From the NCBI GenBank assembly GCA_019113915.1, contig DXGM01000035.1, positions 1 to 64,000 of the forward strand: a stretch of 64,000 bases of DNA. The letters run 5' to 3'. Below the pieces are notes generated by a model. It was not told where the DNA came from. It saw only the letters and a list, made by a program, of their open reading frames with translations, and made no database searches. Position numbers and translations under genes: made by a program. The stretch is from Candidatus Gordonibacter avicola (lineage in GTDB: Bacteria > Actinomycetota > Coriobacteriia > Coriobacteriales > Eggerthellaceae). Each line of letters starts with the position of its first letter. Position 1 is the stretch's first letter. Shown piece after piece: positions 3,375 to 60,304 of the stretch.

Positions 3375-3773
3375 TTACACGCGACGACGCTTGCGCGGAC
3401 GGCAACCGTTGTGCGGAATGGGTGTGCAATCCTGGATGCTGGAAATTTCCAGACCGGCGGCCTGCAGCGAGCGGATAGCCGTCTCGCGACCCGAACCCGG
3501 GCCCTTGACGAACACCGCCACCTTGCGCAGTCCGTGCTCCATAGCCGTTTTCGCGGCGGCCTCAGCGGCCATCTGCGCGGCGAACGGCGTGGACTTGCGG
3601 GAACCCTTGAAGCCCACGGTGCCCGCGGACTGCCAGGAGATCACATTGCCCTGGGGATCGGTGATGCTAACAATGGTGTTGTTGAACGTAGATTTAATAT
3701 GAGCGGCGCCCACAGCAATGTTCTTACGCTCAGAACGCTTGATGCGCGTGCGCACGTTTTTCTTAGCTGCCAC
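3375..3773 (-). CDS. rpsK: 30S ribosomal protein S11
   Basis: 132 residues. The sequence is typical of uS11: [39 protein letters not shown], then the C-terminal [16 protein letters not shown]. It forms the platform of the small subunit near the E site. The start is a GTG ([13 protein letters not shown] in translation) because no ATG precedes the conserved region; GAGG lies about 9 nt upstream. It lies 11 nt after rpsM. Confidence 0.97.
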
Positions 3774-3784
3774 TTCTCGCTACC

Positions 3785-4153
3785 TCACTTCTTCTTTCCG
3801 CCGATTTGCTTCCGAGGCCCTTTTCGAGTGCGCGCATTCGTGTGCGTGCGCTGTCCGCGAACGGGCAGGCCACGACGATGGCGCAGGCCACGGTAGCAAC
3901 CGATCTCCATGAGGCGCTTGACGTTCTGAGACACCTCGCGGTGCAGGTCGCCCTCCACCTTGATGTTCTCCTGAATGTAGTCACGCAGCTTGGACAGATC
4001 GTCCTCCGTGAGGTCCTTGACGCGAACGTCGGGATCGACGCCGGTGTCGGCGAGGATCTTCTTGGAGGTGGTCAGGCCAATGCCGTAGATGTAGGTCAAG
4101 CCGACTTCAATGCGCTTATCGCGAGGAAGGTCGACACCAACAAGACGTGCCAT
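3785..4153 (-). CDS. rpsM: 30S ribosomal protein S13
   Basis: 122 residues, full length. It starts [20 protein letters not shown]. The helix-turn-helix region [16 protein letters not shown] and the C-terminal [15 protein letters not shown] with its Lys-rich tail are as in uS13. It bridges the head of the 30S to the 50S and contacts P-site tRNA. GGAGATATAACCT lies directly before the ATG. It follows rpmJ by 22 nt in the usual infA-rpmJ-rpsM order. Confidence 0.98.
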
Positions 4154-5496: not shown

Positions 5497-6027
5497 ATGT
5501 GGTTCACCAAAGCGCTTGTTGCCTACGACGGATCGTCCCCCTCGGCAAAGGCCATTGACCTGGCCCGCGGCATGGCCGCGCAGGACCCAAACATGGAATT
5601 CGTGTTCGTGCATGTAATGAAGCTGATGGCGCTGGGCACGGGCGCGGAGGGCGTGCTTATTGAAGAGGCGAACCGCGTGTATGGCGTGCTGCAAGACATT
5701 GCCGCGTCGCTGCCGAACAAGGCGCATGCGCACCTGCTGAAGGGCTCGTCGCCCGCCGATCTCATTTTGAAGTGCGCCCACGACGAGGGCTGCGACCTCA
5801 TTATTATGGGCAGCCGCGGCATGGGTGGCGTGCGCGGCTACTTAGGCAGCGTGAGCCACGGCGTGGTGCAGGGCTCGCCGGTGACCGTGCTTATTGCGAA
5901 GGGCGCGCCGGAGGGGGAAGCGAGTGCGGAAGCGCCGGGCGCACCGGGCTCGAAGAGTACGCAGGTGGAAAGCGCTGATGCCACGGGTGTGGACGCCGAT
6001 ACCTGCGGCGAAAGGACGGCGCGTTAG
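5497..6027 (+). CDS. Universal stress protein (UspA family)
   Basis: 176 residues, a single Usp domain. It starts MWFTKALVAYDGSSPSAKA (strand 1 and the nucleotide-site Asp). The ATP-binding signature near residues 108-132 is GSRGMGGVRGYLGSVSHGVV, i.e. G-x2-G-x9-G-[S/T]. The last 40 residues are a Gly/Ala/Glu-rich tail. AAAGG lies upstream of the ATG. Its stop is followed after one base by the MFS gene, so the two are probably cotranscribed. The substrate or signal is unknown. Confidence 0.9.
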   Translation: MWFTKALVAYDGSSPSAKAIDLARGMAAQDPNMEFVFVHVMKLMALGTGAEGVLIEEANRVYGVLQDIAASLPNKAHAHLLKGSSPADLILKCAHDEGCDLIIMGSRGMGGVRGYLGSVSHGVVQGSPVTVLIAKGAPEGEASAEAPGAPGSKSTQVESADATGVDADTCGERTAR

Positions 6028-6028
6028 T

Positions 6029-7297
6029 ATGTCTTCAGCCGCGAAGGCGAAACTTTGGACCAAGGACTTCACGCTGGGCACCGCTGTGAACTTCCTGCTG
6101 ATGGTGAACTATTACGGCCTCATGGTAGTGGTGGCCGACTACGCGCTTAAGACGTATCACGCGCCTGCCGCCACGGCGGGCCTTGCCGCGAGCATCTTTA
6201 TTATAGGTGCATTGGCGGCGCGCCTCGTGAGCGGGCGCATTATGGACAAGGTAGGACGCAAGCGCCTGCTAGTTATGGGCGCGGTGGGCGAAGTGGTATT
6301 TTCGCTGTTGTACCTGGCGGGGCTGGGGTTTGCACCGCTGTTCGCCATTCGCCTTCTGCACGGCTTTGCGTATGGCACGTGCTCCACCACCATCGGCACC
6401 ATTGTGACGGCACTCGTACCAGACGCGCGCAAAGGCGAGGGCGTGGGCTACTACATGCTGTCCGTCACATTAGGCGCGGCCATCGGGCCGTTTCTGGGGA
6501 TGTTTCTCACGCAGAACGCGGGCTTCTTTGTGCTGTTCATTACGACGGCGGTAGTGGCGGCGCTGTGCTTACTGGCTTCCGCACAGCTGCGCGTGCCGGA
6601 AGCCAACCAGACAAGCGATGAGCGTATCGAGGAAGCCGCCGAGGACATTGCACGCGACGAGCGCACCGAAGGCGCTGGTGACTTCCGCGTGCCGCGCTTC
6701 GACGTGAAGAACTATCTGGAACCCAGCGTGCTTCCTATTAGCGCGGTATGTGCGCTCTTGTTCTTCTGCTATTCGAGCCTGCTTGCGTTTCTGACGCCGT
6801 TTGCCGCGGAGAACGGGTTGGCGGAGCCGGCGAGTTTCTTCTTTGTGGTGTACGCCATTGCCACGTTCGTGACGCGTCCGTTTACGGGGAAGCTGTTTGA
6901 CCGCAAGGGCGATCGCGTGGTGATGGTACCGGCGTTTATCGCGTTTATCTGCGGCATGGCGCTTTTGGCCACTGTGCACCGGGCGCCAGCCATGCTGATT
7001 GCTGCGGCGCTTTTGGGCTTCGGCGTGGGCACCGTGCAGGCAAGCGGCCTTGCGCTGGCCGTGCGCCTCGCCCCCGACGAGCGCCTGGGCCTGGCGAACT
7101 CCACCTTTTACATATTATTGGATGTGGGCGTGGGCATTGGCCCCCTTGCGCTGGGCGCCGTGCAGCCGCTGTGGGGCTACCGCGGCCTCTTCGACGCCAT
7201 GGCCGGCGTAGCCATAGTAGCTCTCGCCGCCTACCTCTTCGTAAGCCGCAAACGCGGCACCATGCGCCAGAAATTAAAGGCGCAGGAGCGGGAATGA
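6029..7297 (+). CDS. MFS transporter
   Basis: 422 residues with about 12 hydrophobic segments and a charged central loop (about residues 195-225) separating two halves. MDKVGRKRLLVMGAVGE in the loop between TM2 and TM3 is the MFS signature G-x3-D-x-x-G-R-x-x, and LFDRKGDRVV is the matching element in the second half. Overall it resembles the arabinose/drug-efflux group. An in-frame extension back to 5894 would overlap the Usp gene; I chose the ATG at 6029 because the sequence then begins with a typical short cytosolic N-terminus before TM1. The substrate cannot be deduced. Confidence 0.9.
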   Translation: MSSAAKAKLWTKDFTLGTAVNFLLMVNYYGLMVVVADYALKTYHAPAATAGLAASIFIIGALAARLVSGRIMDKVGRKRLLVMGAVGEVVFSLLYLAGLGFAPLFAIRLLHGFAYGTCSTTIGTIVTALVPDARKGEGVGYYMLSVTLGAAIGPFLGMFLTQNAGFFVLFITTAVVAALCLLASAQLRVPEANQTSDERIEEAAEDIARDERTEGAGDFRVPRFDVKNYLEPSVLPISAVCALLFFCYSSLLAFLTPFAAENGLAEPASFFFVVYAIATFVTRPFTGKLFDRKGDRVVMVPAFIAFICGMALLATVHRAPAMLIAAALLGFGVGTVQASGLALAVRLAPDERLGLANSTFYILLDVGVGIGPLALGAVQPLWGYRGLFDAMAGVAIVALAAYLFVSRKRGTMRQKLKAQERE

Positions 7298-7342
7298 GAT
7301 ACCATGAGCCCTACCCGACATTCTCGACGATTGGATGAAGCG

Positions 7343-7624
7343 ATGTACGCCATAGCGTTCGACCTTAAAATAGACACCCTCAAGGACGCGTACGGCGAGC
7401 CGTACAACGGCGCCTATGCCGAAATCCAGCGAGAACTTGAAGATTTGGGATTCACCTGGGCGCAAGGAAGCCTGTATCTGACCGATGAGGGGAATGAACT
7501 GGTCGCGGTATTCAACGCTATCGAACGCTTGCGCCAGATTGACTGGTTCTGCAAAAGCGTCCGCGACATCCGCGCCTTCAAGGTAGAAAGCTGGTCAGAC
7601 TTTACTCCTAAGTTCAAAGAGTAG
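7343..7624 (+). CDS. VapD-like endoribonuclease (Cas2-fold family)
   Basis: 93 residues from the ATG at 7343. [20 protein letters not shown], then [31 protein letters not shown] and a C-terminal [10 protein letters not shown] closely match VapD as I remember it from Helicobacter pylori (about 94 residues). H. pylori VapD has a Cas2-like fold and RNase activity; Asp7 would be the counterpart of the Cas2 catalytic Asp. An earlier ATG at 7304 would add 13 residues not found in the family. It follows the MFS gene closely. No VapX or other antitoxin-like small gene is visible on either side. Confidence 0.85.
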
Positions 7625-7667
7625 CAGGGAACGTCCCTGGCAACCCACAGGTTGCCGTAAGACAAAA

Positions 7668-7991
7668 TGTGACGCGCTGTCGCGCTGGCTAATAAGCCAC
7701 AAGTTTTCTCGCATCCCTTGCCTTACGACGCGGGCTGACTGACTTGAAGGCGTCGACTTACAAGAAGCATAACCTCCGTAGGGGCTTTCTCCAGAAAGCC
7801 CGTTCGCGCAAAGCGCGAAAACGCAGATCATGGTTGAGTTCTCCGCCTTCGGCGGAGAGGGCGCTTCGTGAAGCGCCCCTACGAAGGTTACCTTTTTAGT
7901 TAGATTTATCGTACATGAATGAACCCTCGTCATAGTGATAGGGAGGGCAGTCGTCTCGTGGCGTAATCAGTAGCGCGATAGCGCGTCACAC
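7668..7991. repeat. Repeat A, copy 2 (full length, inverted relative to copy 3)
   Basis: A 324-bp long palindrome. The terminal arms start TGTGACGCGCTGTCGCGCT and, at the right, the reverse complement of TAGCGCGATAGCGCGTCACA. Inner arms AACCTCCGTAGGGG and CCCCTACGAAGGTT flank four small hairpins, including GGCTTTCTCCAGAAAGCC, CTCCGCCTTCGGCGGAG and GGCGCTTCGTGAAGCGCC. It has no open frame of note. It lies between the convergent vapD and HD genes. Compared with copy 3 the whole element is reversed. Confidence 0.85.
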
Positions 7992-7995
7992 TTTT

Positions 7996-8033
7996 ACGGC
8001 AAGGGGCGAAGCCCTTGCCGTACAGTCAACCTG
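7996..8033 (-). repeat. Repeat B, copy 3 (short, reversed)
   Basis: On the minus strand it reads CAGGTTGACTGTACGGCAAG then GGCTTCGCCCCTTGCCGT, matching the first 40 bases of repeat B at 986 and 23675. It directly abuts repeat A copy 2 and may also act as terminator of the HD gene. Confidence 0.65.
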
Positions 8034-8050
8034 GCGCCTGGTGGGTTAGG

Positions 8051-8656
8051 TTACTCGGCGGCGGGTTGGAAGGTGTCGCGGTCGGGGGCGAAGGATTGCA
8101 TGGCTTCTATGGTGCGGGCGAAGAGTTCGTCCAACTCCCAGCCGAGCATCTCGGCGCCGGAGCGAATGACCTCGCGGCTCACGCCAGCGGCGAAGCGCTT
8201 GTCCTTGAACTTCTTCTTCAGCGACTTCACCTCAAAGTCCATGACGCTCTTGCTGGGACGCATGACCACCGCCGCGCCGATAAGGCCTGTAAGTTCTTCG
8301 GTGGCGAACAGGATCTTCTCCATCTGCAACTCGGGCTTGGGCAGCTCGGGGTTGAAGTCGGACGTGTGGCTTTGAATGGCGCGAATGAGTTCGGGAGAAC
8401 CACCAGCGGCCTCAATGTCCTTCGCGGCATAGATGGTATGCAGCTCAGGCTCGTCGTCGTGCTCTTCCCAGTCGAGGTCGTGCAGCAGACCCACGATGCC
8501 CCAGAATTCCTCGTTCTCCGGGTCGTACTCGCGCGCGAAGTAGCGCATGGTCTGCTCCACCGTTTCGGCATGCTCAATGTGGAACGGATCCTTGTTATGC
8601 TCCTTCAACAGCGCAAACGCATCCTCGCGAGAAATCCCCGCCTCCAACGTAGCCAT
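8051..8656 (-). CDS. HD-domain metal-dependent phosphohydrolase
   Basis: 201 residues from the ATG at 8656, chosen because AAAAGGAGGG lies 6 nt upstream; a longer frame to 8698 has no such site. HIEHAETVEQTM (about residue 25) supplies a first His and GLLHDLDWEEHDD (about 55-67) the HD pair, followed by a later His (QSHTSD), the H...HD...H pattern of small HD hydrolases. The family acts on nucleotides or phosphoesters; this subfamily has no assigned substrate that I know. It converges with vapD across repeat A. Confidence 0.8.
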   Translation of the reverse strand: MATLEAGISREDAFALLKEHNKDPFHIEHAETVEQTMRYFAREYDPENEEFWGIVGLLHDLDWEEHDDEPELHTIYAAKDIEAAGGSPELIRAIQSHTSDFNPELPKPELQMEKILFATEELTGLIGAAVVMRPSKSVMDFEVKSLKKKFKDKRFAAGVSREVIRSGAEMLGWELDELFARTIEAMQSFAPDRDTFQPAAE

Positions 8657-11234: not shown

Positions 11235-14200
11235 TTAGGCAATTTCGTATGCGTCGCTGAAGCGATGCAGGATGGCAGCTGCCTGCTCGCGCAGCGTAGA
11301 GCCCTGAGGCACAAGGTTGCCGTCATCTGTGCCACGGATAAGCTGTTCAGCGTTAGCCCAAGCCATCACGTTCGCTGCCCAGTCGCTTACGCTTTCAGCA
11401 TCGCCGAACTGAGACAGATTGGCGCTGCCTGTTACATCATAGCCCTTAAACGACGAATAGTTGTACAGGATAGCCGCCATCTGCTCGCGGGTAACCGGGT
11501 CGTTCGGGCCAAACGTGTTCGTGTCATCATAACCGTTTACCACACCATTTTCGGCAGCCCAAGCAATTGCGTTGGAGTACCACATGCCAGCCTCCACATC
11601 GCTAAAGGTTGAAGCAGCCTCAGGTGCAACTTCGCCTTCGAGGCGATGCAGAATGGTTACCAGCATGCCACGAGTAAGCGTTTCCTTAGGCGCAAAGGTG
11701 GTGTCGGAGGTGCCCACAATCATGCCCTTGCTAAACACAAATGCGATGTCGTCAAAGAAGATGTTGTCCTTCTCCACGTCGACGAACGGAAGAACGGTTT
11801 CCGTCCACTTCGCATACACCGTGGTGTCAGCCGTCAGCTTGACAGAAGTTACCTTGGTGGAAAGCGCCTCATCAGAATACCAACCCTCAAACGTATAGCC
11901 TTCACGCGTAGGCACAAATTCTGCGAGGTCAACGGTGGTACCAGACGTTTTACTGACAGCATCAATGCTGCTGCCACCATTGGTGTTGAAGGAGAGCTTG
12001 TAGGTGGCAGTCACGCCGCCCGTGCCGGGAACAGAGGTCTTTTTTTCTGCCGCAACGAACGTCGAGAGATGTGTAGTAGAACCCGTAATGATGCCAGTAA
12101 TACGGTCATACTTAATAGTTTCGACGCCCGCATCGCTCAAGGCGTCATTACCCTCAACATAGAACATCTTGGGGTTACGCGCGCCCGTGCCGATATTGAA
12201 GGAGAACTGGATGGGTTTTTCGGTAAGGCCTTCGATAGGAACCGGTGTTGGGTCGGCGGCGTCACCTGTTACAATGGTGACTTCGATAGCACCAAACTTT
12301 GCGCCTGCACTAGGGGCAGATGCGTCGATGCTAGCCTTATCAACCTTGCTCACGTTTACGATTGCAGAAGAACCTGATTTAACCTCTTTTGCGATCTCCT
12401 CAAGAGCCTTGCCTGAAAGCGATACGTTAGCAGCATTGGTCTTGAGTACGACAGCTTCAACCTTTGAAGTACCAGCATCGACAAGCGCGTTTATCGTGGC
12501 CTCGGGAAGCGTAATCACTGCCTTAGTGACATTCTCTACAGGATTACCAGTGTTTTCATCTTCGGCTACGGCATCAATCTTAATCGTAGGTTTGTTTTCT
12601 CCCCCATTTGTTTGAGGAATAGAACTTGAATCAATTGTTACTTCTGCCGTCGTCCCATCGTTCACGGTGACTTCGTTGTCAGTAGCCTTCTTGACAAAAC
12701 TGACCTCGTTTTTGTATGTAGCAGTACCCGTATGCTTTTTAAAAGTATCAGCGTCAAGGGTACTCGAAGTAGTGCCATCGGCTACCTCGACAATGCTAAT
12801 CGTGATATCACCAGACTGGCTTGAAACCAGGAAGTCGAGGCCCTCCTTAAGAAGGGTTTCACCCTTATACACTCCCATCTTGGTATTATCAGAAAATGCA
12901 TTCGCACCATAAGCATAGTTCAGCGCTGGATTTTTTTGCATGATTGCATAGGATTTAGCGCCGTCAAGGTTAGTGAAGTCCAAGTGAGCGAAAGCAAGTT
13001 CCTTGTCACCCGCCACCTTGTATTGGGTCGTACCTTCAATCTGGCTAAACAGGGTGCCGAAGTCACGTACTATATTGAATTCAGTAGAACCCTCTTCGCT
13101 GTTATCCATTACATAGGTAGCAGGATCCACGGTTCCTGATAGTGGAGTATCGATCGTAGCACCCTGAACTGAACCAACCATACTCGGTTTGGTTTCCCCG
13201 AAGTACACCTCATTGGCATTCGCTACGACTGATTTGCCGTCGCTCTGATAGGCTGCGCAGTTTTCGGCAATATAGTCACTCGGGTCAGACGTGAACGTGC
13301 CACCGGTGATTGAAATTTTGCCAGCTTTTTTTGCATCGACCGTATTGTCTTCGGCAATAGCGACCAATCCAGTATAGGTGCCACCTTCGATTGTCACGCT
13401 CGTATTGCCCTTGTAGGCGCTATTATCAACAACCGCGATTGCGTAACCTTGTGTGGAGGTACCATTGGAGTTGGCCTTATGCGTAGGTTCACCCTTATGA
13501 TTACTGGTGAATGTTGGGTCGCCTGTAATAGCGATTGTACCCGACTTCGCCTCGAGGGCCGTCGTACCTTCAATCCTGCCGCCAGAAATATTCAGGGCAC
13601 CCTTCTGAGGATGATAAATACTTACATCCTTCTTAGATTCGACGACTGCGCCGTTATAGATGTTGATTTCCGTTTCCTTATACTTAGCAAGACCGTTGCC
13701 ACTAATTGCGGTTGCTTCGCCCGCCACTGAAATAGTACCGGACAACTCAAGCACCTGTTTGTTATTCTCACCGATGAGTGTAACGCCGTAGCAATGCTCC
13801 GAAGATATCGTGACATCGCTCCCAACGACAAGCTTGGCTACGCTATCGTCGCCGGAAACGAGAATGACTGAACTGCCCGACGCAAATTTGCTGTCTTCCC
13901 CTCCCTTATTGGCAGACACCGTGCCCTGGCCGGTAAGGGTTAAGGTACCGCCATTAACGCGGATGGCGCGACAATCTGTACTCGCAATAGCATACTTGTT
14001 TAGATCGATAGTAAGATTTTTGGTGGTCGTGATGGTTTCGCTCAAAGCTATATCAGCTTGCAAGCTAATGGTAGCGCCGTTTTCCGCTTTATCGATAGCT
14101 TCCCCGAGGCTCGCATAGCCAGTACCACCAATCATGGCAACAGGTTGCCCTGTAACTCCGTCCTCAGTCGCACTATCAAGCGTTTCTAGTGCACTAGTGC

Positions 14201-14310
14201 TTTGAAGGCCCCCCCCCCCCGGCGTTCGCAGCGTAGGCAGCCATGGGCGTTAGGCTCATGAGCATGGTCACGCTGAGAAGAGCGGGAAGTGCTCTACTTC
14301 TAAACTTCAT
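11235..14310 (-). CDS. SLH-domain surface protein, signal peptide out of frame by one base at a poly-G tract
   Basis: The ATG at 14310 (AGGAG upstream) encodes a signal peptide, MKFRSRALPALLSVTMLMSL then TPMAAYAANA, running into four Gly codons made by a 12-G tract. In the sequence given, this frame stops four codons later. With 11 or 14 Gs it would continue into GLQSTSALETLDSATED and the long frame ending at 11235, about 1,020 residues in all. That body has a beta-helix-like N-terminal region (about 40-320), Ig-like stretches, an InlB B-repeat (FNTNGGSSIDAVSKTSG...EGYTFEGWY, near 775-850), and three SLH domains at the C-terminus for binding cell-wall polymer. In the OFF state only an unexported fragment from an internal start could be made. 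Confidence 0.85.
14209..14220 (-). repeat. 12-G homopolymer tract, probable phase-variation switch
   Basis: Twelve C on the plus strand (G on the coding strand) sit at the presumed signal-peptidase site. The present length puts the signal peptide and the mature protein one base out of frame. Confidence 0.8.
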
Positions 14311-14411
14311 GTTTCTCCTTCCATTGATTCTGCTCCAGTTTCTCCCCTACATGACATACCCCAGACACATCACCTCCTTTGAAAAGGGTGTAACAGGCAT
14401 GAACTCATTTA

Positions 14412-14439
14412 AGTATACTCCATGCCTGACGCTTAGCAA
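14412..14439 (-). promoter_or_regulatory. Promoter of the SLH surface-protein gene
   Basis: On the minus strand, TTGCTA and TATACT are separated by 16 nt. The predicted leader is about 95 nt to the ATG at 14310 and contains AAAGGAGGTGATG in addition to the start-proximal AAGGAG. Confidence 0.65.
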
Positions 14440-14486
14440 TAAGTGGTGGTGGGTTTCGGCATTGAGAAACAGGTGAACATACGCAC

Positions 14487-14510
14487 GCGGGGCGGCCGAA
14501 GCCGCCCCGC
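14487..14510 (-). terminator. Strong hairpin between groEL and the SLH gene
   Basis: GCGGGGCGGC-CGAA-GCCGCCCCGC is a perfect 10-bp stem with a tetraloop, with no clear T-run after it. It lies upstream of the SLH promoter and may isolate it from groEL transcription. The rest of 14511-14591 shows nothing else recognisable. Confidence 0.55.
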
Positions 14511-14591
14511 ATTCCGAGTTAGTGTTGTGCGCCCAAGCGCAAGACGCCTGCTGACCACCCCCAGGTTGTTTGATAATTCTCCCAGGTCGTT

Positions 14592-14751: not shown

Positions 14752-16401
<1,650 letters not shown>

Positions 16402-16491: not shown

Positions 16492-16779
16492 TTATTCGAA
16501 GACCGCGTACAGATCGTCGGCGCGCAGGATCATGACATCCTCGCCGTCGATGTGCACTTCGGTTCCACCGTACTTGCCGTACAGCACCTTGTCGCCCACC
16601 TTCACGGGCACAGGCACCAGCTTGCCGTCCTTGTCCATCTTGCCTTCGCCCACCGCGAGCACTTTGCCCGTCTGGGGCTTTTCCTTCGCCTCGGTCGCGA
16701 GATACAGACCGGATGCCGTCGTCTCCTCAGCCTCGTCCTGCTTGATGATGACGCGATCACCCAATGGTTTCAAATTCAT
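16492..16779 (-). CDS. groES: Co-chaperonin GroES (Hsp10)
   Basis: 95 residues. It starts MNLKPLGDRVIIKQDEAEET and contains the mobile-loop region ASGLYLATEAKEKPQTGKV and the barrel motif VKVGDKVLYGKYGGTEV. It forms the heptameric lid of the GroEL chamber. It is the first gene of the operon, preceded by GGAAGGAAG and by a promoter with a CIRCE operator. Confidence 0.98.
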   Translation of the reverse strand: MNLKPLGDRVIIKQDEAEETTASGLYLATEAKEKPQTGKVLAVGEGKMDKDGKLVPVPVKVGDKVLYGKYGGTEVHIDGEDVMILRADDLYAVFE

Positions 16780-17012: not shown

Positions 17013-17849
17013 CTAGCGGGGTTCCTTTGCGTACGCGAGAAGCGCGCCCGAACCTGAGCGCAGATTGGCTACTACCTTCCCCAGCTCCTCCGCAGCGGTG
17101 AGCGCCATCTCAGCGCCCTGGGGGGTGAGCCCAACTTTCTGTACGTAGTCTTCGCTGACGTATCCCGCGCTGAATCCGGCGAAGAGTTTGTTGCGCAAGC
17201 GCGTCACCAGTTTGGACACTTCCGCAGGCTCAACGCGCAGGGCGTCGGCCATAAACTCGAAGGAAGCGGTAACGCGGTGGAGCCTCAGCAGTACGAGGCA
17301 TTGGGCTTCCGTGAACGCGAGGCCAGTGACGGGCAGACCCACCTCGTCCCAGCGCTGTATCAAACCCATGAGCGCGATGAGACACGCGGGGGTGAGCATC
17401 GTATGACAGCAGGGGTCGAATTCCAGATCACTCACACCCAAGCGGCCCGCCGCCAGACTGAGCGCCTTGGCCATGCCTTCCACCCCTTCGAGCAAGCGGG
17501 CGCGCTCGGCGGCCTCTTCCAGGCACTGATACGCCACCTCAAACCCGGTGGTAAGTGTTGCGCTGGCCCGGTCTGTCTCACGCAGTTGCAGATTTCGACG
17601 ACCGGCGTGGGCGTAGGACTTTTCCACCAAGCCGTTGTGCGCAAGTTCGCTGGCCGCAAGGCTGGCGGCGCGGCCCGAGACGAAGACATGGGGCGGAAAC
17701 GCCGCCAAGGGAAGCGTTCCTTCATGCGAATGCACGGACGCCAAGAGGCAAAACGCTTTCAGCGAAATGCCGCACGCCTGATCGAGCCCACGCTGAAGCG
17801 ACCGGCGTGCGTCGTCCACCGCCGTAGCCGCGTGCAGCGTCACTTCCAT
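17013..17849 (-). CDS. Tandem winged-helix (MarR-like) regulator, unassigned
   Basis: 278 residues with no signal or membrane segment. Two regions look like MarR winged helices. The first (about 25-110) has ISLKAFCLLASVHSHEG...SLAASELAHNGLVEKSYAH...NLQLRETDR. The second (about 180-270) has FTEAQCLVLLRLHRVTASFE...EVSKLVTRLRNKLFAGF...KVGLTPQGAEMA. A Cys pair (CC at about 150) lies between them. One chain would thus carry both wings that MarR proteins usually provide as a dimer. Ligand and target are unknown. The start lacks a strong ribosome site, so the N-terminus is uncertain. Confidence 0.6.
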   Translation of the reverse strand: MEVTLHAATAVDDARRSLQRGLDQACGISLKAFCLLASVHSHEGTLPLAAFPPHVFVSGRAASLAASELAHNGLVEKSYAHAGRRNLQLRETDRASATLTTGFEVAYQCLEEAAERARLLEGVEGMAKALSLAAGRLGVSDLEFDPCCHTMLTPACLIALMGLIQRWDEVGLPVTGLAFTEAQCLVLLRLHRVTASFEFMADALRVEPAEVSKLVTRLRNKLFAGFSAGYVSEDYVQKVGLTPQGAEMALTAAEELGKVVANLRSGSGALLAYAKEPR

Positions 17850-54432: not shown

Positions 54433-56759
54433 ACGAGCGTCTCTTCCTCGCCGTCGGCGTAAAGGGCGCGGCCGGCCACTTCGGCCTCGTGCGGGGCGAA
54501 GGCGAGGGGGATGGGTGCGGAAGCGGCGTCCTCGGTGGACACGTCCTCAGGCGCTGGCGCGTCCACCGGTTCCGGCTCCGGCGCGGGCGGGTTCTGCCGG
54601 TCGGCCTCGGCCGCCAGCTGCGCCTTCAGTTCGGTATAGCGCTCCACCAGGTAATCTTCAGCCCAGCGCTGATCGGGGATGAGTTCCACCTCGCACGCGC
54701 TGTACTTGTCCTCGGGCGTACCGGACTCGCCGTCCACCACGTGCAGCGTGAGTTCGTTGCACTTGCCGATCCACCACTGGTAGGTCATGTACACGGCGCC
54801 GTCGTTCACGCGCTCGTCCACGGCGGCGCGCGCGAGCACCTTGCCGCGGCGCGACGTCACCCACACCAGCTGCTCTTCCTCGATGCCGCGCGCGTCGGCG
54901 TCGGCGAGGCTCATGCTCACGTAGCCGGGCTCGTCGGCGAGCGCGGCCAGCGCCTTGCAGTTGCCGGTCATCGAACGGCACGAGTAGTGCCCCACCTCGC
55001 GCACCGTGCACAGCACCAGGGGATACGCGTTGTCTGGGCGCTCCGTGGGCGGCTGCCAGTGCGCCGCCATCAAATGGCCCTTCCCATCAGGCGTGGTGAA
55101 CGCGCCGCCCGCGTACAGCTCAGGCGTGCCGTTGTTCGCGGGATCATCCGCCGCGTCGGCAAAGATGGGCCACTGTGCGTAGCCCGTGCCTGCCATCTTC
55201 TCGTACGTTGCGCCGGCGAACTGCGGGCAGAGCGAGCGCACCTCGTCCCAGATCTCGCGCGTGTTTTGGTACTTCATGGGGTAGCCCATGCGCGTAGACA
55301 GGTCGGCGAAGATCTCCCAGTCGTGGCGACACTCCCCCTTTGGCGGCAGTGCGGCCGTGGTCAGCTGGAACGAACGGTCGGACGCGGTGTACACAGCATC
55401 ATGCTCGGCCCACGAGGTGGCGGGCAGCACCACGTCGGCGAGCGCGGTGGTCTGCGTCATGAAGATGTCCTGGCTGATAAGCAGGTCGAGGCCTTCAAGC
55501 GCCGCACGCACCTGCGCGGTGTCGGGCTCGGTTTGCAGTGGGTCCTCGCCAAAGTTGTAGAACGCGCGAATTTTCCCCTCAGCCACGCCGTGCGGCAGGT
55601 CGGTGAGCTTCCAGCCGGGCGCAAGCGACAGACGCTCCTGGGGCACGCCCCACGCGGCGGCGAACTTCGCGCGTGCCGCCGGATCGTCCACGCGCTGGTA
55701 GCCGGGATAGAGGCTTGGCCACATACCCATGTCGCACGAACCCTGCACGTTATTTTGGCCGCGCACGGGCGCAAGACCGCTGTTCGGACGCCCAATGTGG
55801 CCCGTGATGAGCGCAAGCGCCGCGATGGCGCGCACGGTTTGCACGCCCTGCGCCTGCTGCGTCACCCCCATGCCCCAGCCAATGATGGCCGTCTCGGCCG
55901 TGGCGTAGCAACGCGCCGCCTGCCGAATGACCTCGGACGACAGACCCGTAACCTCTTCCACATCCTCGGGCGCGTAATCCTGCACGACTTCCCACCACTC
56001 GTCGAAACCGGTCGTGTGGTCGTCGATGAAGTCGAAGTCGGCCAGTTCTTCGTCGATGATGGTGTAGGCGAACGCGTTCAGAAGCGCCAGGTTGGAGCCG
56101 TTTTTGAGCGGCAGGTAGAGGTCGGCGATGCGGGCCGACTCGATGATGCGCGGGTCGCACACGATAAGTTCCGCGCCGCGCTCCTTCGCCTTCACGATAC
56201 GGCGCGCCACGATGGGGTGGCTCGCCGCGGGGTTGTAGCCGAACAGCAAAATGCAGTCCGTTTCCTCAAGCGTGGGAATGCTCACGCTCATCGCGCCCGA
56301 GCCGACGCACTCCATGAGCCCAATGACGCTGGCCGCGTGGCAGGTGCGCGCGCAGTTGTCGATGTTGTTCGTGCCGAGGCACGCGCGCGTGAACTTCTGC
56401 ATGACGAAGTTGGCCTCGTTGCCAGCACCGCGCGAGGAACCCGTGAGCATGACGGCTTCGGGGCCGCTTTCCTCGATGATGGCGCGCAGCCGTTCAGCCG
56501 TAAAGTCAAGTGCTTCGTCCCAGGTCACACGCTCAAGCGGCGCGCCTTTCGTGCGGCGAATCATCGGGTGGTAGATGCGCGGCGTGAGGATTTTCGTATC
56601 GTTCACGAAGTCGTAGCCGTAGAGGCCTTTCAGGCACAGCTCGCCCTCATTCGTGATGCCGGGCAGGCCCTCCGCGTCGATGACCTTGCCGTTCTCCACC
56701 ACGAGGTTCATCTTGCAGCCGGCGCCGCAGTACGGGCACACCGCCATATGCTTTTCCAT
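54429..56759 (-). CDS. fdhF: Formate dehydrogenase H-type catalytic subunit (Cys form)
   Basis: 776 residues. The N-terminal VCPYCGAGCKMNLVVENGKV with later CLKG binds a [4Fe-4S] cluster. The bis-MGD domain follows E. coli FdhF closely, including TGSSRGAGNEANFVMQKFTR, ARTCHAASVIGLMECVGSGA and TVREVGHYSCRSMTGNCKAL. The catalytic selenocysteine of FdhF is Cys here (CARTCH), so no SECIS is needed, and the following His and the Arg of the active site are kept. The last 60 or so residues are a Pro/Glu/Ala tail absent from E. coli (715 residues). It oxidises formate or reduces CO2. There is no Tat signal, so it is cytoplasmic. Confidence 0.95.
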   Translation of the reverse strand: MEKHMAVCPYCGAGCKMNLVVENGKVIDAEGLPGITNEGELCLKGLYGYDFVNDTKILTPRIYHPMIRRTKGAPLERVTWDEALDFTAERLRAIIEESGPEAVMLTGSSRGAGNEANFVMQKFTRACLGTNNIDNCARTCHAASVIGLMECVGSGAMSVSIPTLEETDCILLFGYNPAASHPIVARRIVKAKERGAELIVCDPRIIESARIADLYLPLKNGSNLALLNAFAYTIIDEELADFDFIDDHTTGFDEWWEVVQDYAPEDVEEVTGLSSEVIRQAARCYATAETAIIGWGMGVTQQAQGVQTVRAIAALALITGHIGRPNSGLAPVRGQNNVQGSCDMGMWPSLYPGYQRVDDPAARAKFAAAWGVPQERLSLAPGWKLTDLPHGVAEGKIRAFYNFGEDPLQTEPDTAQVRAALEGLDLLISQDIFMTQTTALADVVLPATSWAEHDAVYTASDRSFQLTTAALPPKGECRHDWEIFADLSTRMGYPMKYQNTREIWDEVRSLCPQFAGATYEKMAGTGYAQWPIFADAADDPANNGTPELYAGGAFTTPDGKGHLMAAHWQPPTERPDNAYPLVLCTVREVGHYSCRSMTGNCKALAALADEPGYVSMSLADADARGIEEEQLVWVTSRRGKVLARAAVDERVNDGAVYMTYQWWIGKCNELTLHVVDGESGTPEDKYSACEVELIPDQRWAEDYLVERYTELKAQLAAEADRQNPPAPEPEPVDAPAPEDVSTEDAASAPIPLAFAPHEAEVAGRALYADGEEETLV

Positions 56760-56763
56760 GAGG

Positions 56764-57417
56764 CTACTCCCCCTCGTTCAGTTCAGCGTTCAGCTTCATG
56801 CTGGCGTACGACGCCGTTGCGCGAGCCGCGGCCTTGCGCTTGCTCTGCCGCGCACGCTCCATGAACTCCGCGTCTATCAGGCGCAAAGCGTTGGTCGGAC
56901 AGGCGGCCGCGCACGCCGGGCCGCGCGCACAGTCCAGACACAGGTCGCACTTCACCACCGTTGACTTCGTGCGCTTGCGCTTCTTTGCGCGCGCTCGGGC
57001 CCGCGCGCCCTTGGCGGACTTGTCATCCTTGGCGGCGGCTTCGGCCGCGGCCGCTTCCTCGGGCGTGGGCTCAGGTTCGGGCGGCAGCTTCTCGGTGACG
57101 ATTTCCACCGCGCCATAGGGGCAGGCCAGCACGCAGTTTCGGCAGCCGATGCACTTGTCAGGATGCACGCCCACGTGCTCGTCATCGCTGTAGAGGCAGC
57201 CCGTCGGACACGCGTCCACGCACGGCGCCTCGGCGCAGTGATGGCAGCCCACGGGTGCGGAAATGGTGCGCGTGGTGACTAACGTGAGACGCGGAACAGC
57301 CACATCCTCTAGCTGGTCGTGGCGCATGAGGCACGCGGCCATGCACGTTTTGCAGCCGATGCACACCGACGGGTCGGCGATGATGAACTTCCGGCCGACG
57401 GGTATCGCAGCGCGCAC
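56764..57417 (-). CDS. HydN-like four-cluster ferredoxin with basic insert
   Basis: 217 residues from a GTG (VRAAIPVGRKFIIADPSVCI) that follows GGGAGG by 8 nt; the frame continues upstream but into folD. Motifs are CIGCKTCMAACLMRHDQ, CHHCAEAPCVDACPTGCL, CIGCRNCVLACPYGAVEIVT and CDLCLDCARGPACAAACPTN. Between clusters 3 and 4 lies an insert with an acidic Ala-rich part and a very basic part (ARARARAKKRKRTKS). It probably belongs to the formate dehydrogenase complex of the next gene. It starts one base after the folD stop. Confidence 0.85.
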   Translation of the reverse strand: MRAAIPVGRKFIIADPSVCIGCKTCMAACLMRHDQLEDVAVPRLTLVTTRTISAPVGCHHCAEAPCVDACPTGCLYSDDEHVGVHPDKCIGCRNCVLACPYGAVEIVTEKLPPEPEPTPEEAAAAEAAAKDDKSAKGARARARAKKRKRTKSTVVKCDLCLDCARGPACAAACPTNALRLIDAEFMERARQSKRKAAARATASYASMKLNAELNEGE

Positions 57418-57418
57418 G

Positions 57419-58288
57419 CTACCGGCCTCCCTCGCGCGCAGCAAGCGCCGCCTCGGCCGCAGCCACCGTGTGCGCCATGGTGACACTGGTCGTGACCGTA
57501 CCCAACCCGCCCGGCACCGGCGTGATGGCTCCCACCACCGGTTCCACCGCTTCGAAGTCCACGTCTCCACAGATGTTTCCCTGTTCGTCGAAGTTGATAC
57601 CCACGTCGAGCACCGTCTGACCAGGGCTGAAGAACTCCGCACCGAACGCGCGAGCGCGCCCCGTAGCACAAATGACGATGTCAGCCGAACGGCAGAGGCT
57701 CGCCAAATCCTCCGTGCGACTGTGGCACATCGTGACGCTGGCGTTGCGACGCAGCAGCATCATGGACACCGGCTTGCCCACCACCAGGCTGCGCCCCACC
57801 ACCACAACGTGCTTGCCCTCAAGCGGCACGTCGTAGTGCTCCAGTAATTCAATGCACGCCGCAGCCGTGGCCGGCGGAAAACCTCGGTCACCATCGGTGA
57901 ACACTGCCGCAAGCGAAGCAATCGTAATGCCGTCGATGTCCTTTTCCGGTGCCAGTTGTTCGCACGCCTGCACCTCGTCAATATGCGCAGGTAGCGGGCG
58001 GAACAGCAGGCAGCCGTGAATGCTGGGGTCCTGGTTGACCTCGTAAAGCGCGGCTTCCAGCGCCTCTTTCGGCGCGCTCTCATCCAGCACGAAGAGCCGC
58101 ACGGCAACGCCGAGCGATTCGGCGCGCTTGCGAGCGGTGCGCTCATAGGACAGGTCGTCAGGGCGCTCACCCATGCGCACGATGGCGAGCGTCGGTGTGA
58201 CACCGGCCTGCTCAAGTGCGTTAACGCGCGGCGCGAGGTCGGCCGCTAGGCGCTCAACGACGGGTTTTCCGGTAAGAAGGGTTGCCAT
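57419..58288 (-). CDS. folD: Methylenetetrahydrofolate dehydrogenase FolD, cyclohydrolase Lys missing
   Basis: 289 residues. The segments GCLLFRPLPAHIDEVQACEQ, KDIDGITIASLA, PPATAAACIELLEHYDVPLE, VVVGRSLVVGKPVSMMLLRR and TPVPGGLGTVTTSVTMAHTV are those of FolD. The usual Y-x3-K of the active site (Y-V-A-S-K in E. coli) reads Y-E-R-T-A, so the catalytic Lys is Ala. Mutating that Lys in the human enzyme removes cyclohydrolase but not dehydrogenase activity. The neighbour fchA, 17 nt upstream, probably supplies the missing step. It oxidises methylene-THF with NAD(P)+. Confidence 0.93.
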   Translation of the reverse strand: MATLLTGKPVVERLAADLAPRVNALEQAGVTPTLAIVRMGERPDDLSYERTARKRAESLGVAVRLFVLDESAPKEALEAALYEVNQDPSIHGCLLFRPLPAHIDEVQACEQLAPEKDIDGITIASLAAVFTDGDRGFPPATAAACIELLEHYDVPLEGKHVVVVGRSLVVGKPVSMMLLRRNASVTMCHSRTEDLASLCRSADIVICATGRARAFGAEFFSPGQTVLDVGINFDEQGNICGDVDFEAVEPVVGAITPVPGGLGTVTTSVTMAHTVAAAEAALAAREGGR

Positions 58289-58305
58289 GAAACGGTACGC
58301 TCCTT

Positions 58306-58917
58306 TTAAGAGACGGAAGTTTTCACGAAATCGAACAGCTCGTCGCAGCGTTCGCGCGTACGCGCAGCCAGTGACTCAGTTTCGCCCCGGTAGTGCGCGG
58401 CCAGCGCCGGGTCGTCCATTGAGGCGGCGTTGATGAAGATGTTGAGGCTGGCACCGTCCGAGGCCGCACGGGCGAAGGCCGCGGCAACGCCCGCGTCCGA
58501 GCGCGCCATCACGCTGCCGTGATGAGCCAGGTAGTCGGCTTCATCCACCACTTCAGCCACCGCGCGCATGATGGCAAGCGGCACGTCGCACGCGCCAACA
58601 AGCGCCTGTTGAAGTGCGGCGTTTTTGGCCGCCTGCTCTTCGGGCGTAGCCTTAGGCAGGCGGTAGGCGGCCGCCAAAGGCTCAAACGCGCGGGCATCTT
58701 CGTCCGCCAACGCAACGAGACGCGCCCTCAACGTGGCAAGGCACGCGAGCGAGGCCTGCACGTCATCCTCCACATCGGCGTAGCGCTTCTTCCCCACCGT
58801 GAGGTTGCCCACCATGGATGCGAGGGCCGCAGCAAGCGCGCCCACGTACGCCGACGCTCCGCCGCCGCCCGGCGTGGGAGCGGCGCTGGCCAGCTCATCA
58901 ATAAACGTGGTGTCCAT
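58306..58917 (-). CDS. fchA: Methenyltetrahydrofolate cyclohydrolase / cyclodeaminase (FTCD_C)
   Basis: 203 residues. The start FIDELASAAPTPGGGGASAY then VGALAAALASMVGNLTVGKK is diagnostic of the formiminotransferase-cyclodeaminase C-terminal family, as are the conserved Asp-rich LADEDARAFEPLAAAYRLPK and VARSDAG-type segment (MARSDAGVAAAFARAASDGA). In acetogens FchA converts methenyl-THF to 10-formyl-THF. It is the first gene of the run fchA-folD-ferredoxin-fdhF-hycB-hycF and thus links formate to folate. Confidence 0.92.
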   Translation of the reverse strand: MDTTFIDELASAAPTPGGGGASAYVGALAAALASMVGNLTVGKKRYADVEDDVQASLACLATLRARLVALADEDARAFEPLAAAYRLPKATPEEQAAKNAALQQALVGACDVPLAIMRAVAEVVDEADYLAHHGSVMARSDAGVAAAFARAASDGASLNIFINAASMDDPALAAHYRGETESLAARTRERCDELFDFVKTSVS

Positions 58918-58945
58918 AGGCTGCTCCTTAGCTTCTTGTCATCAC

Positions 58946-60304
58946 TTAAGCGAGACGCGCGAGCACATCCTTCAACGCCGCGGCTCCGCCTTCGACAGCG
59001 CAGGCGGCCAGCTGCGTTTTGAGGGCCGCGAGGTCCGCCATCTGCTCGTCGTGCGCCTGCATGTCGCGCACCTTCACCTGACCGGCGGCCAGCTCGTCGG
59101 GGCCCAGCACCACCACGGCGTGTGCGCCCAGCTTGTCGGCAAGCTTGAACTGGCTCTTCAGGCTGCGGCGCTGATGATCCATCTCACCCACCAGGCCGCC
59201 GTCGCGCAGCGCCTGCACGAGCGAGAACGCCTCGGCGCGCACCGAATCATCCACGCAGGCCACAAACACGTCGCAGCGCTGCGCCGCGGGCAACGTGTGG
59301 CCCGCGGCTTCAAGCGCCAGCACGCAGCGCTCGTAGCCAAGCGCCCAGCCGAATCCCGGCGTGGGGCGACCTCCCACTTCTTCGGCCAACTTGTCGTAGC
59401 GCCCGCCGCCTCCGATGGCGTTTTGGCTGCCCATACCTTCCGTGACCTGTACCTCAAACACCGTGCGCGTGTAGTAATCCAGGCCGCGCACCAGCGTGGG
59501 ATCTTCCACAAACACCAGGCCCGCGCCCGTGAGGTACGTCTTCACCGCCTCGTAGTGCTCTCGGCAGTCGTCGCACAGGTGATCGGTGATCTTCGGCGCG
59601 CCCTCCATGACGGCAGCGCACCCGGGGTTTTTACAGTCGAACGCGCGCAAGGGGTTGGTTTCGGCGCGGCGCTTACATTCGTCGCACAACTCGTCCGTGT
59701 GCGTGTCCATGAACGCCTTCACCGCGTCGCGATACGCCGGACGGCACACGTCGCAGCCCATGGAGTTCACCAGCAGGCGCGTTGCCTCCACGGGAATGCC
59801 AATGGCCGCATAGAAGCGCATGAGCATGATAATGCCCTCGGCATCCACGCTGGGTTCCTCGGCGCCCAAGCACTCGATGCCTACCTGGTTAAACTGGCGC
59901 TGGCGACCCTTCTGCGGACGCTCAGCGCGAAACATCGGGCCCGCGTACAGCAATTTCGCGGGCGCGGCCCCTTGCGGCACCAGGTCGTGTTGAACCACCG
60001 CGCGCACCACACCGGCCGTGCCTTCGGGGCGCAAGCTCAGGCGGCTCTTCGCCTTCACCGTGCCGCCATCCAGGAGTTTCTTCAGGTTCTCGCCCGAGAT
60101 GGCTGTGAACATTTCCTTCGACACCACGTCGGTAGCCTCGCCGATGCCGCGCACGAACAGTTCCGTCTGCTCAAACACGGGCGTTTCGATGGGCAGGTAG
60201 CCGTAGCGCCCAAATATCTCGGTCGCAATCGCCTTAAACCGCGTCCAATACACGGCCTCATCAGGAAGCAAGTCTTTCGTACCTTCAGGTGCTTGGAGTG
60301 CCAT
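58946..60304 (-). CDS. hisS: Histidyl-tRNA synthetase
   Basis: 452 residues. Class II motif 1 region YGYLPIETPVFEQTELFVRG, motif 2 SRLSLRPEGTAGVVRAVVQH then FRAERPQKGRQRQFNQVGIE, the histidine loop GLDYYTRTVFEVQVTEG and motif 3 PGFGWALGYERCVLALEAAG are present. A C-terminal anticodon-binding domain follows (about 350-445). A Cys-rich segment (CDVCRPAYRDAVK, CDECKRR, CDDCREH) in the insertion domain suggests a zinc site. AAGGA precedes the ATG. It is 28 nt upstream of fchA and may be cotranscribed. Confidence 0.97.
   Translation of the reverse strand: MALQAPEGTKDLLPDEAVYWTRFKAIATEIFGRYGYLPIETPVFEQTELFVRGIGEATDVVSKEMFTAISGENLKKLLDGGTVKAKSRLSLRPEGTAGVVRAVVQHDLVPQGAAPAKLLYAGPMFRAERPQKGRQRQFNQVGIECLGAEEPSVDAEGIIMLMRFYAAIGIPVEATRLLVNSMGCDVCRPAYRDAVKAFMDTHTDELCDECKRRAETNPLRAFDCKNPGCAAVMEGAPKITDHLCDDCREHYEAVKTYLTGAGLVFVEDPTLVRGLDYYTRTVFEVQVTEGMGSQNAIGGGGRYDKLAEEVGGRPTPGFGWALGYERCVLALEAAGHTLPAAQRCDVFVACVDDSVRAEAFSLVQALRDGGLVGEMDHQRRSLKSQFKLADKLGAHAVVVLGPDELAAGQVKVRDMQAHDEQMADLAALKTQLAACAVEGGAAALKDVLARLA

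Follow-up and report, generated by a model that had tools for sequence, protein, structure and literature searches.

Simple repeats in the leader-peptide part of surface genes switch translation ON and OFF in Neisseria opa and in Helicobacter pylori oipA and sabA, where the repeat units are CTCTT or CT, unlike the G units of the locus considered here, and where the products are Gram-negative outer-membrane proteins. The dermatan-sulfate adhesins DsA1 and DsA2 of the actinobacterium Propionibacterium (Cutibacterium) acnes resemble the present gene in having homopolymeric tracts near the signal peptide, with phase variation proposed, but their tract lies upstream of the signal peptide and the proteins are different (PMC3772855); the same report names SabA as phase variable. 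In Campylobacter, hypermutable G/C homopolymer tracts, both intragenic and intergenic, likewise underlie phase variation, although the bacterium and the contingency genes described there are unrelated to those of this study (PMC8355987). In Bifidobacterium breve UCC2003, a G-tract interrupts the first gene of each of two pilus operons just after the Sec signal, separating it from the remainder of the protein; one culture contains tracts of different lengths, those in frame become enriched in mice, and strains engineered to be in frame form pilus-like structures (PMC9187656).

Here, a G-tract at the signal-peptide junction of a large surface-protein gene is described from a 64-kb stretch of DNA, hereafter the window, together with the tract-bearing genes found elsewhere in the same 3.08-Mb genome (G000) and in its relatives. 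A protein scan of named genomes assigned the window to Gordonibacter, a genus of gut bacteria (Eggerthellaceae, Coriobacteriia). Poly-G slipped-strand translational phase variation, with the gene OFF in the assembly, is very probably the correct reading of this locus.

Anatomy of the candidate switch

The locus lies on the minus strand of the window. Its upstream neighbor on the same strand, outside the switch, is a putative groEL (14752–16386), taken from the list of open reading frames and recognized by its GroEL-type sequence and by a short gene of GroES type beside it (16492–16779). Downstream of groEL, between it and the surface gene, is a GC-rich hairpin (14485–14512, minus strand; fold z = −3.3), after which a sequence scan found no T-run. 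A consensus scan placed a promoter-like sigma-70 site, TTGCTA-16-TATACT, at 14412–14439 (9 of 12 matches, which alone are no proof of function), and a ribosome-binding site, AAGGAG, occupies 14315–14320, 4 nt upstream of an ATG at 14310. From this ATG, the segment MKFRSRALPALLSVTMLMSLTPMAAYAANA (14221–14310, minus strand) is read, a predicted signal peptide of 30 residues with a basic n-region, a hydrophobic core, and an AYA-A/ANA cleavage region. It runs directly into twelve Cs on the plus strand at 14209–14220, that is, G12 on the minus strand, the candidate switch and the only G/C run of at least 8 within the window.

At twelve Gs, translation gives MKFRSRALPALLSVTMLMSLTPMAAYAANA-GGGG-PSKH-stop, a frame of 38 codons whose out-of-frame tail, PSKH followed by a TAG stop, occupies 14194–14208. 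The body of the protein lies in a frame shifted by one relative to the signal peptide; it extends for 990 codons from 14207 to a stop at 11235 on the minus strand and contains no internal stop. When all three frames were read, tracts of 11 or 14 Gs connected the signal peptide to the body, and those of 10, 12, or 13 led to a stop. The original prediction of a promoter, a ribosome site, and a signal peptide reading into 12 Gs and then a stop was borne out at the level of the sequence, as was its proposal that one G fewer or two more would join the frames and that the gene is OFF at the given sequence, the last holding for the consensus.

That the downstream frame encodes an SLH surface protein, as had also been proposed, was confirmed by a profile search, which detected SLH domains (PF00395, E 1e-27) in two stretches at about residues 867–980. 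A Flg_new repeat (PF09479) occupies residues 736–800. Structure prediction for the N-terminal 336 residues, made from the sequence without an alignment, gave a beta-rich model of low confidence (pLDDT 53), and a Foldseek search with this model returned mostly beta-helix proteins, with no match below E 0.001; the weakness of these matches and the low pLDDT make "beta-helix adhesin" a tentative label. The protein would be anchored through its SLH domains and may have a beta-rich N-terminal region.

Searches of 60 relatives and three more genomes with the window gene gave partial, domain-level matches and no full-length orthologue, so that comparison of tracts across species was restricted to other genes. 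A plasmid search with the window protein likewise yielded SLH-level and weak matches only, and the neighboring gene at 17013–17849 is not conserved in the genus and hence provides no synteny information. Within the same genome, a paralogue at C49:33934 has a similar SLH end, is 35% identical to the window gene over the C-terminal halves, and carries a G12 tract that is in frame.

Length distribution and placement of G-tracts

G/C runs were counted in 390 kb of G000, leaving out the window's own G12. These sequences were chosen around long runs, so that they include almost every long run of the 3.08-Mb genome; the background is given by the fall from length 5 to 7 (351, 51, and 4 runs). For lengths 8 to 14, the counts were 3, 6, 5, 16, 13, 5, and 3. 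Run lengths in G000 are thus two-peaked, with a minimum at 7–8 and a second maximum at 11–12, and there are about 50 G-runs of at least 8; A/T runs in the DNA of this genome reach a length of 8 at most. Across 14 window genes, GGG accounts for 16% of glycine codons, GGC being preferred, and codon preference is therefore no explanation for runs of 11–14 Gs.

The long runs are also unevenly placed. An automatic filter that required a signal peptide ahead of the run and 250 or more codons of open frame after it, and that was stricter than reading by hand, retained 10 of 51 runs of at least 8 versus 4 of 402 runs of 5–6 in G000 (Fisher p = 1e-7). Gordonibacter sp. An230 (G163), which with a Gordonibacter metagenome-assembled genome is the nearest named relative (92–93% identity for the protein used), gave 338, 39, 2, 2, 6, and 5 G/C runs for lengths 5 to 10 in 333 contiguous kb, again a two-peaked distribution, with the second peak at 9–10, and its junctions were enriched as well (3 of 13 runs of at least 8 versus 10 of 377 runs of 5–6; p = 0.007). 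The G-tracts are longer and commoner than chance and are non-randomly placed.

A repertoire of tract-bearing surface genes

Every tract of at least 9 in G000 was read by hand, each in its own direction. At least 16 tracts away from contig ends are located at signal-peptide/mature junctions of large surface-protein genes, with lengths that span 9 to 13 and fall in all three frames. In-frame tracts number 5 and out-of-frame tracts 11, with 5.3 in frame predicted from random lengths; as read from the assembly, this proportion points to lengths that drift from frame to frame without constraint, and genes kept ON would not be expected to show it.

Most of the junction genes encode leucine-rich repeat (LRR) proteins of the BspA type (PF13306), in which the signal peptide ends in ...(S/T)ENL, the G-run follows, and the mature part begins with (L/H)SEPL. 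The window gene and the gene at C49:33934, both SLH-ended, are of another kind. Ten LRR genes, on contigs C2, C3, C5, C10, C16, C18, C27, C45, and C47, have a second tract inside the first repeat, in the arrangement K(N/T)L-G-run-AFTDSSVESLSLPETI; where one contig carries both tracts, the second lies about 300–400 bp past the first. Second tracts away from contig ends were in frame in five of eight cases, and the four genes in which neither tract lies at a contig end comprise one with both tracts ON and three with both OFF. Judged from its reading frames, a double-tract gene would be expressed in full only with both tracts in frame.

Related ...CPCFCL domains terminate eight of the ten double-tract LRR genes. 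Contigs C3, C10, C13, C17, C24, C27, C28, and C45 end at G-tracts or within a few bases of them, and the cause of these breaks is probably reads failing there.

A G-tract in the target gene of a diversity-generating retroelement

On contig C28, an LRR/DUF6273 surface gene at about 56733–59858 carries G10 at its signal-peptide junction, out of frame, and a second copy of its 142-bp 3′ end lies on the same contig, ahead of a reverse transcriptase gene. In coordinates of the segment C28:56000–68000 of G000, the variable repeat, at the 3′ end of the LRR target, occupies 3713–3854; the template repeat 6523–6664; and the reverse transcriptase 6920–8107. An Avd-like gene (phrog_3206, E 4e-5) lies between target and template at 5804–6478. 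Template and variable repeats are identical at 131 of 142 positions, and all 11 differences fall at template adenines. This arrangement is that of a diversity-generating retroelement, and its target, a gene separate from the window gene, is itself gated by a G-tract.

The C-terminal domains of the LRR paralogues were also considered as current retroelement targets and were rejected, because they depart from the template at other bases besides adenines; with adenine-confined differences in the C28 gene alone, only this gene qualifies as a target. Among the papers listed by a search of the open-access literature, one review mentioned both subjects and none described a tract-gated retroelement target, which is weak evidence of novelty. 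We consider it reasonably likely, with appreciable room for doubt, that this Gordonibacter species has its own surface repertoire of numerous large LRR and SLH proteins gated by poly-G, frequently through two tracts in series, and that one or more of the gated genes are retroelement targets too, so that random switching and targeted hypermutation would act on the same protein.

Tracts in other Gordonibacter genomes

The closest LRR homologues found outside the species, in a closed Gordonibacter genome (G002) and in G031, have a similar signal peptide, linker, and first repeats, lack the tract, and form one open frame, so that the tracts were either gained in the lineage of the window or lost in both of the others. 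The ENL-type junction pattern was absent from all other genomes among 138 of the family, and a scan of named genomes gave no match to the exact G11 junction. In one 333-kb contig of An230, three different surface genes with frames of 1569–1864 codons combine a signal peptide with G9–G10; one of them is ON and two are OFF. These junction sequences are specific to the species of the window, and the architecture recurs elsewhere, as in An230. The An230 genome as a whole, of which one contig was surveyed in detail, has 158 G-runs of at least 9, about threefold the number in most other Gordonibacter genomes searched.

Two sister Gordonibacter genomes (G001 and G002) contain many G-tracts, none at signal-peptide junctions of such genes, which indicates that junction use of tracts is not genus-wide. 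In G001 to G003, tracts are found in glycosyltransferases, close to a sugar transferase, and in a membrane regulator of the LuxR type, and the tracts in glycosyltransferases of the sister species suggest phase-variable glycans. Glycosyltransferase-like genes with internal tracts were seen in G002 and G003, and homologous LuxR-type membrane regulator genes with an internal G-tract are present in G002 (out of frame) and at the end of contig C24 of G000. An orthologous GGDEF-type gene has a tract near its start, in the same place in both genomes, of 10 Gs in G000 (C49:90068) and 12 in G004; both copies are out of frame, and both require the same length modulo 3. Two very long runs, one of 28 Gs and one of 22, occur in the closed genome G002, outside obvious surface genes.

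Mechanism and alternative explanations

In the proposed mechanism, the polymerase would slip on the G-run in replication, adding or removing Gs, and the slips would stay unrepaired because the lineage appears to be without mismatch repair of the MutS/MutL type. MutL (PF01119) was undetectable in 21 Coriobacteriia (G000 and 20 relatives), with 11 of 14 control genomes positive, and NucS, the substitute for mismatch repair in Actinobacteria, leaves indels uncorrected (PMC8228993). Frequent slippage is to be expected at long G-runs where indels escape repair, and each change of length would move the gene to another of three frames, of which one is open and two are closed. A tract of 11 or 14 Gs would let translation continue from the signal peptide into the body, and the protein would be exported and held by its SLH domains at the cell wall (ON); with 10, 12, or 13, translation would stop within a few codons and nothing would reach the surface (OFF). 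Many surface genes switched alike would yield a population with many surface combinations. We infer frequent change of tract length, and expression in the joined frame only, from these features.

Differing lengths and frames were found among the paralogues (9–13 Gs) and between the GGDEF orthologues, the window gene itself having no full-length orthologue. The contingency locus of the original prediction is supported by the number of such loci, by their lengths scattered over all three frames, by the tract-free relatives, and by a host that appears permissive for indels, with no detectable MutL; none of these would be expected from a fixed sequencing error or from gene decay.

Tract lengths that are assembly errors would be the commonest way for phase variation to fail as an explanation. 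If the true tract were 11 Gs and had been miscounted in sequencing or assembly, the gene would be constantly ON, with no switching; Illumina sequencing is poor at G-tracts (PMC9187656), and several contigs of this assembly break at them. Such errors, however, create neither a second peak at 11–12 nor junction placement in two species, 11 of the 16 junction tracts would need to be wrong, and, with GGC as the preferred glycine codon, nothing would favor the retention of an uninterrupted G-run in a gene that is always ON. Miscounting as the whole explanation is thus judged very unlikely, although the length at 14209–14220 alone may be wrong with the interpretation as a switch unaffected. Slightly less probable still is transcriptional or ribosomal slippage on G12, by which some full protein would be made in every cell. 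Long homopolymers can provoke slippage, and the B. breve study discusses and cites the transcriptional kind (PMC9187656), but slippage would favor a fixed effective length and frame, and the junction lengths run from 9 to 13 through all frames. A decaying pseudogene broken by chance at a homopolymer would likewise show an interrupted frame and lack a full-length orthologue, as the window gene does among the genomes searched; yet the 990-codon frame is otherwise stop-free, the promoter-like and ribosome sites are kept, and many paralogues are broken only at the same kind of tract, leaving decay as the least credible of the three and a highly improbable account.

Significance and comparison with known systems

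If at least 16 surface genes are gated as proposed for slipped-strand phase variation, isolates of one species would differ in adhesins, phage receptors, and immune targets, and the repertoire would mislead annotation, broken genes being called pseudogenes. A gene that combines a G-tract with the variable repeat of a retroelement would offer a way to ask how two diversity generators combine. In the literature searched, surface phase variation in Coriobacteriia is represented only by capsule-cluster inversions in Eggerthella lenta (PMC13174815), and no poly-G system was found for this class.

The closest known case is the G-tract switch of B. breve, whose sequence features the window locus shares. 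As in the sortase-dependent pilus genes bbr_0113 and bbr_1889, an actinobacterial gut commensal has a G-tract of about 9–12 that parts an ORF for a Sec signal from the ORF for the body of the protein (PMC9187656). Tract lengths that join the frames allow expression in B. breve; here, the reading frames predict the equivalent relation. Unlike the window protein, the B. breve product is an LPXTG pilin encoded in an operon of pilus genes, and one or two such clusters per genome are described (PMC9187656), whereas the genome analyzed here has an SLH protein at the window locus and, in all, over 15 surface genes with tracts, many of them double. The slippage mechanism is already known, and it is the double tracts, the SLH and LRR proteins, and the number of loci that set this system apart from the B. 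breve case.
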